NCBI GenBank assembly: GCA_938010565.1
Contig: CALLUQ010000077.1
Location: forward strand, 1 to 39,847
Reading direction: 5' to 3'
Length of the DNA stretch: 39,847 nucleotides
From: an uncultured Flavobacteriales bacterium
GTDB lineage: Bacteria > Bacteroidota > Bacteroidia > Flavobacteriales_D > CALLUQ01
Below the pieces are notes generated by a model. That model worked only from the letters and a program-made list of their open reading frames with translations. It made no database searches and was not told where the DNA came from. Within the stretch, counting starts at the first letter, position 1. The number at the start of each line of letters is the position of its first letter. Positions 14,107 through 18,456 of this stretch are shown here, in pieces. The translations under genes and the position numbers were made by a program.

Positions 14107-14847
14107 TTAAATGGTCATGGCCTGTGCGGTATTCTGTACTTTGTGACGAAACCGCAGCGATGCGCGTACAAACTGCGTAATCAATGGGTGAGGCAAAGCA
14201 CCTGCAGAAGTGATTTGCGGATGGAACAAGGTTCCTACAAAAAAGGTGTTATGCTTGTATTCGAATATACGGATATCTCCTGCTTCATCCATTCCTCCCG
14301 GGTGCAACTCTTTCTGAACCAGATGATCCAGCAATTCGTCGGCAATGTTCAACCTCCAGGCAGATGCTTCACGGGCTATTTCCTGCGGATAGCACTGATG
14401 TGCAATGGAACCGTTCAGAAGATAGATTTTTTCCAGTTCGATCTTGGGAGTTCCTGAGGCACTTTTTCGGGTAATGCCCCTCTGATCTTTTGCCGTAAAG
14501 AAATGAGTTGCTCCCTGAACGCCCAATACATTTTTTGTGAATTCGAGAATAGCAAACTGACATCCGGAGCTGGTGCCCAAAAACGGAATGTTTTTTTCTC
14601 GTGCATAACGAACGGCTTCTATGATGCCCCGCGCATTGGCATAAGGTCCGGCGGTAAGAAAAATACCGTCGAACCGGCTCAGTTCTGCTCTGGGATCATT
14701 GGCTATGCTTTGGGAGTCAACCCACCAGTAATTGATGTCGGTTTCGAGTATGTTTGCGCTGTCTTCAATGGCACGATTGGTGGACAGATGTGATGTCTGT
14801 TCCCGATTAAAATCACCAACAATAGCAATGTCGAGATAATGATCCAT
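14107..14847 (-). CDS. CTP synthase C-terminal-like class I glutamine amidotransferase, triad degenerate
   Basis: A 246-residue stand-alone protein resembling the glutaminase half of CTP synthase. The start IAIVGDFNREQTSH matches the family whose members are named CTP synthase C-terminal region-related (seleno)proteins; some carry selenocysteine at the nucleophile. Here the nucleophile elbow reads LGTSSGCQ where CTP synthase has LGICLGMQ, so serine replaces the catalytic cysteine. The later LFHPQITS replaces the usual FHPE, so the glutamate is glutamine. The expected Cys-His-Glu triad is therefore Ser-His-Gln, and glutaminase activity is doubtful. No TGA codon is involved. Function unknown. 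ATG at 14847 is chosen over the TTG at 14874. Confidence 0.8.
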   Translation of the reverse strand: MDHYLDIAIVGDFNREQTSHLSTNRAIEDSANILETDINYWWVDSQSIANDPRAELSRFDGIFLTAGPYANARGIIEAVRYAREKNIPFLGTSSGCQFAILEFTKNVLGVQGATHFFTAKDQRGITRKSASGTPKIELEKIYLLNGSIAHQCYPQEIAREASAWRLNIADELLDHLVQKELHPGGMDEAGDIRIFEYKHNTFFVGTLFHPQITSAGALPHPLITQFVRASLRFRHKVQNTAQAMTI

Positions 14848-16822: not shown

Positions 16823-18456
16823 AGCCTATCGATGAGTTGTTAAAATAATAGTGATCAACAAATTGCAGGATTTTTTGATCATTTATCTTGAATAAAAAAA
16901 GAAGACAGATGAAGTTGTTGAATGACCTGACATTAAAATTTGAACGCTCTGATTGGTCAAGAAATCCCGAACTAGGTTTGATTGACACCATATTGGAGAA
17001 AAGACCAGATTTGATCCACTTGTTAAGTGGTGATATTATGTCTGGTAACAAGGAAAGTCATTTTGGTTGCAAAGACACCCCTACTGTGGAGCAAATTGTA
17101 AGAGCAGCCATCTACAAAGAATTCAAGTCCTTTACTTACCAGGAACTGGAATACGCACAATCAGATTCAAGAATTTGCGCCACGTTTATCCAGCTTGATG
17201 AGCGTAAGCCTTACGGTTTTCAGGTATGGCAGGAATATATTTCTAAGATAAAAGAAGAGTCTTTGCATGCATTTTGGGTAGCCTTGAACCGAATAGCGAT
17301 CAAAGAAGGGTTGGAAGATGTAAGTGCTATCCGTATGGATAGCAAAGCGGTAGAAACCAACATCCATTATCCTACGAATAATTCATTGGTATGGGATTGC
17401 ATAAAAGAAGCACAAAGATTGTTGGGCCATTTAGCCCGAAAAGAAAACATTAAGGTCATCAATTACACTTCAGAAGCCAAATCCAACCATTTCCTGATCA
17501 ACAACCCCAAAACCAACAAGCAAGTGGCCCTGTTTAAAAAACAGTTGGTGTTGTTTACCAGGAGCATCAATCAGGTGAATAAATTGGTTAAAAAAAGATT
17601 ATAGTTCACCGCAAAGTTGGGTTTTAGTGGAAAAGCTTCGGCCACTTCTTCCTTTGGTGAAGCAAGCTTATTCGATGACTTATCGGACCGGAAACAAATC
17701 AAAAGAGAACAAGTTCCCAACGATCAAAAGTTGTTTTCCATTTACGAATTGCATACTGACATGATCGTGAAAGGTAGCCGAGAAGTGCTTTTTGGTGGTC
17801 ATAAAGTCAACCTTGCTGATGGAAAAAGTAAGCTGATATTAGACTGCCAGGTATTAACAGGAAACATCTCCGACACGCATTTATTCAACAGCACCATAGA
17901 AAGGATAAAAGAAAATTACGGACATATTCCTAAAAGTGTGGCCGCAGACGGTGGGTATGCCAGCAAAGACAATCAAAAACAGGCTGTTAAACAGGGGTTG
18001 GTCAACGTAGTGTTCAACAAGGTAGTGGGCAGTCTGAAGAATTTGACCAGCAGCAAGAATATGCAAACCCGACCGAAGAGGTGGTGTAGTGGGATAGAGT
18101 CGACCATTTCAAACCTGAAACGAGGGTTTCATATATTCGTTGTAACCGGAAAGGATGGATGAGCTTGCCAACCAGGGGGGTATGGTCGGTGATTGCTTAC
18201 AATGTTCGGGTGATGACCGGCTTGGTTATTGCTAAAATATAGACAAAAAGCCTTCCAACAAACACACTCAGGGGATAGCCATGTCTGATCGGTAGAAAAA
18301 AGACTGATCTTTATGTTTTGGCGACACTATAGCGACTGGAATATCCACTTTAGTGTAAAAAAGTAAGAAGAGAATGGTATGAATGAGATACTAAATTTAG
18401 TAGGGGTAGCCTTCCTGAAATTTAAAAGCAAATTTCTGTCTTTATAAGACAGGCTC
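16822..18456 (+). mobile_element. Decayed insertion sequence, ISNCY-like
   Basis: An element of about 1635 bp bounded by imperfect terminal inverted repeats: GAGCCTATC on the left and GACAGGCTC on the right, each flanked by TA on the outside. It encodes one broken transposase. About 200 bp between the transposase end and the right repeat hold no gene. The TA flanks may be a 2-bp target duplication or part of the repeat. The element sits exactly between two convergent genes and forms the stop codon of both. The family assignment rests on the transposase sequence. Confidence 0.75.
16909..18242 (+). pseudogene. Broken DDE transposase of the ISNCY-like element
   Basis: The reading frame starts MKLLNDLTLKFERSDW and carries LIDTILEKRPDLIHLL, YQELEYAQSDSRICATFI and the first catalytic aspartate in RMDSKAVETNIHYPTNNS. 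An in-frame TAG at 17602-17604 interrupts it; the same frame continues with the second aspartate (VAADGGYAS) and the glutamate (GIESTISNLKRGF). Near 18130-18160 a frameshift moves the conserved tail (WSVIAYNVRVMTGL) into another frame, ending at TAG 18240-18242. Two independent lesions make it inactive. The ORF track shows it as two pieces (16888-17604 and 17617-18162). Confidence 0.85.

Follow-up and report, generated by a model that had tools for sequence, protein, structure and literature searches.

Stand-alone relatives of the CTP synthase glutaminase domain

The CTP synthase PyrG joins an N-terminal synthase domain to a class I glutamine amidotransferase (GATase) domain (PF00117) with a Cys379-His515-Glu517 triad (CTP synthase residues are given here in E. 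coli numbering, by our own count). Proteins that consist of a CTP-synthase-type glutaminase domain alone are gathered by the NCBIfam model NF004836 (PRK06186, "CTP synthase C-terminal region-related (seleno)protein"), and in annotation they are labelled either "CTP synthase" or "(seleno)protein". Selenocysteine (Sec) in this family has been reported before (PMC12013277, 2025; PMC13188914), and the first of these papers names a Desulfobacterota example. Our literature search turned up neither an assigned function for the family nor any paper that deals with PRK06186 or with the Crocinitomicaceae operon described below.

An alignment-based scan of the genome collection, together with plasmid searches, gave 42 usable stand-alone members with Cys or Sec. 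Their hosts are Acidobacteriota, Chloroflexota, Bacillota, Pseudomonadota, Actinomycetota and others, and searches of plasmid and phage proteins returned Cys-type members of the family and CTP synthases. Three Cys/Sec positions are strongly conserved; in the numbering of the protein analyzed below these are 93, which is the nucleophile elbow (C/U in 41 of 42), 132 (40 of 42) and 164 (40 of 42). The catalytic His has been replaced by Gln, Val, Ile or Leu in 41 of the 42, and Gln is the usual residue (31 of 42) in the column of the catalytic Glu, so the NF004836 family as a whole does not resemble a classical glutaminase.

Ten members (L161, L164, L166, L169, L170, L171, L173, L175, L208 and L220) have an in-frame UGA at the elbow, which reads GTUGGFQ, or ATUGGFQ in one case; they come from Acidobacteriota, Chloroflexota and Rokubacteria, and so add phyla to the Desulfobacterota example of PMC12013277. 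These ten and the two published reports bear out the statement of the original prediction that the wider family includes selenoproteins. A match to selB above cut-off is present in the genomes of nine of the ten UGA members (the locus that has none sits in a 2.5-Mb MAG), in one of five Cys-type genomes and in neither of two Crocinitomicaceae genomes. A hairpin of the sequence type CTCTGKTAGAG follows the UGA in most Sec members, and when the hairpins were folded singly two of four were no better than shuffles, so that they are convincing for some sequences only.

The neighbouring genes of the Cys/Sec members include no common partner, apart from pyrG at two loci, where the Sec-type gene (6001-6684 in L171 and 6001-6705 in L173) lies directly downstream of it. 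In L173 a kdsA-like gene follows the Sec-type gene (compare the pyrG-kdsA arrangement in L084). In a Streptomyces locus (L083, 477-4702) the Cys-type member is the last of a series of genes that includes aroA-like and gpmI-like ones, which suggests a role for it in a biosynthetic cluster.

The window gene and its predicted fold

The gene studied here lies in a stretch of 39,847 nucleotides, the whole of which we call the window, and its features are collected in Table 1. The reading frame is real and encodes a stand-alone CTP-synthase-type glutaminase domain with its own start codon and no synthase open reading frame upstream. Its product matches PF00117 with 42.2 bits (the Pfam cut-off is 22.8), and its best NCBIfam model is NF004836 (E 1.5e-54), on which it scores 184.6 bits, below the curated cut-off of 260 bits; judged by its sequence, it is a distant member of that "(seleno)protein" family. 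The PyrG model fits less well and is covered only from position 289 to 531 of 534, and by this coverage the N-terminal synthase domain is absent. An AF2 model built with 43 family sequences in the alignment has a pLDDT of 92 and a pTM of 0.91 (a low-confidence loop, 118-122, adjoins Phe117), and all of the best matches to it in the PDB are glutaminase domains of CTP synthases, the top ones with TM scores of about 0.80-0.86. The assignment as a CTP-synthase-like amidotransferase, made originally from the letters of the sequence, thus agrees with both profile matches and with the predicted fold. The window protein has in common with NF004836 its stand-alone form, the SHxxTN and GPY motifs, His20, Arg193, the PQ of the His loop and the fold, and many residues outside the active site that are common to the whole family have been kept in it. 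It differs from NF004836 in having Ser at the elbow and Phe in place of Glu117, in lacking Cys132 and Cys164, and in having His209.

Upstream of the window gene is a divergent HEAT/AlkD-like gene and downstream is a gene for a TlpA-like thioredoxin protein. A transposase-like sequence elsewhere in the window (16888-18162) is divided between two frames of 238 and 181 aa and is probably a frameshifted insertion sequence.

Table 1. Positions of the window gene, of its active-site residues, and of the Crocinitomicaceae loci
Feature	Position	Strand	Basis
Putative pseudo-amidotransferase gene, stand-alone, CTP-synthase-GATase-like	14107..14847	-	246 aa plus stop (ATG at 14847, stop at 14107-14109); profile matches, AF2 model, fold match
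Nucleophile elbow L90-GTSSG-C96 (LGTSSGC)	14560..14580	-	translation; strand 89-92 then helix 94-107 in model
Ser93 (AGC), at catalytic Cys/Sec position, CTPS Cys379	14569..14571	-	alignments
Cys96 (TGT), put forward as substitute nucleophile; Cys not conserved in this column	14560..14562	-	alignment
Phe117, at CTPS Glu403 position; Glu in 39/42 Cys/Sec members	14497..14499	-	alignment
Gly132; conserved Cys in 40/42 Cys/Sec members	14452..14454	-	alignment
Trp164 (CTPS His469); conserved Cys in 40/42 Cys/Sec members	14356..14358	-	alignment
Arg165, CTPS Arg470 equivalent, kept; also 78/78 in Crocinitomicaceae	14353..14355	-	alignment
His209-Pro210-Gln211, CTPS His515-Pro-Glu517	14215..14223	-	alignments
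His20, residue of the stand-alone family; Tyr in CTPS	14788..14790	-	alignment
Lipoprotein + pseudo-GATase loci (Crocinitomicaceae)	L036, L039, L044, L045, L117-L127, L131-L156		

The active site

Alignment to solved CTP synthases places Ser93 on Cys379 and His209 and Gln211 on His515 and Glu517, as expected if Ser-His-Gln stands in place of Cys-His-Glu. The elbow reads FLGTSSGCQ (codons GGC ACC AGC TCC GGA TGT CAG for GTSSGCQ), and in the AF2 model Ser93 is at the turn between strand 89-92 and helix 94-107, which is the nucleophile-elbow position; the His loop reads LFHPQ, with the His kept and Glu changed to Gln. This is not ordinary CTP synthase variation, since in a motif scan of loci L001-L078 Cys is present in every one of the 62 CTP-synthase elbows and Glu comes next in every one of the 52 HP motifs that matched. 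The change of Glu to Gln that the original prediction pointed out is not special to the window protein: as noted above, it is the rule among the Cys/Sec members, and the oddity is instead that the His is present.

Compared with PyrG, the window protein thus has the elbow and the equivalents of His515, Arg470 (Arg165) and Gln383 (Gln97) on the same fold, and also the family residue His20, but it has no synthase domain and has replaced Cys379 by Ser, Glu517 by Gln and Glu403 by Phe. It has the fold and the Pfam match of an active class I glutamine amidotransferase and lacks the Cys nucleophile and the HPE motif, and all three Cys/Sec positions of the stand-alone family (93, 132 and 164) have been lost. 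Because the nucleophile, the acid and the Glu403 equivalent are gone, glutamine hydrolysis is very unlikely; the residue losses indicate that the protein very probably has no glutaminase activity, in line with the original prediction, which had proposed a sensor or a non-glutaminase enzyme.

A cysteine in the elbow had been put forward as a substitute nucleophile, which would make the protein an active glutaminase or thiol enzyme after all. This residue, Cys96, is three residues past the normal nucleophile position, not two as first stated, and in the AF2 model it belongs to the helix that follows the turn. In this column 37 of the 42 Cys/Sec members have Phe, and the sister clades have Phe, Tyr or other residues; among the Cys/Sec members only L214 has a Cys here too, and its elbow Cys is intact. 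Because the column is not conserved as Cys, Cys96 is not a substitute nucleophile, and we would give the idea almost no credence.

A remnant of a Sec site in the window gene was also considered and rejected. The Ser codon is AGC, and there is no SECIS-like hairpin (the fold has -2.8 kcal/mol and z +1.24, compared with the CTCTGKTAGAG hairpin of the Sec members); selA and selB were not found above cut-off in the window genome, which is 92% complete. All of this speaks against Sec in the window protein.

A clade without the elbow cysteine

Stand-alone copies were found in the window's order, among 399 genomes searched, in three places: they are very widespread in family f8, which is Crocinitomicaceae/Fluviicola, and occur in addition in genus g19 of family f3 and in the window genome (examples are contigs NVXU02000043.1 of a Fluviicola sp. 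and CAJWDP010000010.1 of an uncultured Flavobacteriales of g19). The Crocinitomicaceae stand-alone pseudo-GATases are a group defined in the present analysis. Samples of the class and the phylum yielded no stand-alone copies beyond the order. Single-protein scans of genome contigs and viral contigs gave no relative, and a strict-E search of the class and an NF004836 search of the phylum returned, besides the window gene, only CTP synthases. Crocinitomicaceae-type copies are also present on contigs labelled Planktophila (L172) and Sphingomonadales (L232), which are probably mislabelled or mis-binned assemblies.

The elbow residue is Gly in all 78 distinct Crocinitomicaceae-type sequences, Asp in all three from g19 and Ser in the window protein, and cysteines 132 and 164 have been lost across all three groups as well. 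The loss of Cys is common to a whole clade of aquatic Bacteroidota: the 19 Cys-less rows form a single clade with support of 98/97 in a tree of all columns and of 99/93 with the active-site columns removed, and this clade is also recovered when either of the long-branched partner groups is left out (SH-aLRT 92 and 89). Within it the window protein branches first, on a long branch of 1.71 changes per site. Since the Cys-less forms make one clade, a single loss of Cys/Sec is the simplest history, with the long branches as a caveat. The window protein shares with its sister group in Crocinitomicaceae the loss of Cys/Sec and of both extra cysteines, and has in common with it PQ, Arg165, His20, Thr23 and Asn24. 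The Crocinitomicaceae forms differ at the elbow, where Gly is accompanied by Asp/Glu and Lys/Arg (T-G-[ED]-x-[FY]-[KR] in most sequences), and they have a Cys instead of the catalytic His, a deletion of the post-elbow loop and a lipoprotein neighbour.

These comparisons bear on whether, in the window lineage, a Cys/Sec protein might have given way to a peptidase or amidase that uses Ser, with Ser93 and His209 as an active dyad. The peptidase S51/cyanophycinase group has a related fold, in which the nucleophile is the Ser of a GTSxG-type elbow and the catalytic His and acid are elsewhere in the sequence. The GTSSG of the window protein fits GxSxG and occupies the elbow in the AF2 model, and His209 has been kept, though nearly all Cys/Sec members, and every Gly or Asp form, have lost it. 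On the other hand, none of the 43 aligned family members matches peptidase S51 in Pfam at E up to 0.01, the best fold matches are all to CTP-synthase glutaminase, and the third residue of the triad is Gln. Ser chemistry would moreover be limited to one lineage, as the sister clades carry Gly or Asp, and for that lineage the searches found no close relative. A Ser hydrolase of this kind is the main alternative reading and seems unlikely to us.

Constraint and a lipoprotein neighbour in Crocinitomicaceae

The Crocinitomicaceae gene is under strong purifying selection: dN/dS is 0.021-0.054 in seven close pairs, six from Crocinitomicaceae and one from g19 (these values are for relatives, the window genome being the sole one of its family in the genome set). 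Within the Crocinitomicaceae protein the old active site ranks with the better-conserved regions: mean entropy is 0.43 bits in the (F)CPQ His loop and 1.29 bits when all columns are averaged. The Crocinitomicaceae form is predicted to have an intact fold (pLDDT 88.5) whose best match is CTP synthase. Directly upstream, on the same strand, all 41 Crocinitomicaceae loci have a lipoprotein gene, with a gap nearly always within 90 bases. After the lipobox the lipoprotein begins C-x-x-H-E-[IV]-[IV]-P-[AP]-P with few exceptions (motif SCxxHE[IV][IV]P[AP]P), and in 26 of the 41 loci its gene is preceded by one for a small protein of about 107-125 aa; Pfam gave no match for two lipoproteins tested or for the small upstream protein. 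The lipoprotein neighbour is absent from the Asp-type g19 loci, and in the window genome there is no homologue of the lipoprotein and no such neighbour beside the gene.

The window gene might simply be decaying and functionless, and its long terminal branch and lack of conserved neighbours would be expected of such a gene. The 246-codon frame is nevertheless intact, the fold is predicted with high confidence, many family-wide residues beyond the active site persist, and the relatives evolve at dN/dS of 0.02-0.05; decay is thus a highly improbable explanation.

The neighbouring genes also bear on whether the protein regulates CTP synthase, by docking on, or competing at, the glutaminase or filament interface of PyrG, which would be a special case of a binding function. 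Its fold is that of the PyrG glutaminase domain, and the two Sec-type relatives just downstream of pyrG point in the same direction, but that adjacency may only reflect tandem duplication. The fixed neighbour in Crocinitomicaceae is a lipoprotein gene and not pyrG, and in the window genome the full CTP synthase (with GICLGMQ and FHPE) is encoded on another contig (G000:C126). Such a regulator is a distinctly poor candidate in our estimation.

A probable binding function

We consider it probable that the window gene encodes a stand-alone, conserved pseudo-amidotransferase that works by binding, as a binding or regulatory protein, and not by glutamine hydrolysis. Strong selection maintains the gene in the relatives, and in Crocinitomicaceae a gene for the same lipoprotein always stands beside it; the product is therefore probably a "dead enzyme" that is conserved and has taken on a new job, and a non-catalytic binding role appears fairly likely for the window protein as well. 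In such a history a CTP-synthase-type GATase domain would have become a separate family with Cys/Sec at the elbow and mostly without the His-Glu pair (NF004836); the lineage of the window genome, g19 and Crocinitomicaceae would then have lost three conserved residues, namely the Cys/Sec of the elbow and both further cysteines of the family; and the Cys-less protein would have been retained as a non-glutaminase, which may bind a partner protein, or else a small ligand at the old active site in its remodelled form. Some observations run against this reading: His209 and a GxSxG-like elbow, more than a dead site would require, persist in the window protein, its branch is long, and the lipoprotein neighbour is missing both in its genome and in the Asp genus. 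That the window protein is a sensor, as had been suggested, is a guess. More tentatively, the Sec/Cys chemistry may have been lost once and the emptied site rebuilt into a conserved new site with a new role in signalling or linked to the envelope, which in Crocinitomicaceae would be shared with the lipoprotein; the rebuilt site might then, equally tentatively, consist of Gly-Asp/Glu-x-Phe/Tyr-Lys with Cys-Pro-Gln in Crocinitomicaceae and of Ser with His in the window genome.

The label "CTP synthase" on such short proteins is wrong. The Cys-less clade amounts to a natural experiment, in which fold and ancestry are the same, three reactive Cys/Sec positions are gone, purifying selection is strong and, in Crocinitomicaceae, the partner is fixed. 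A comparison of the ligands of the Cys/Sec forms with those of the dead forms would indicate which part of the function needs the reactive residue.
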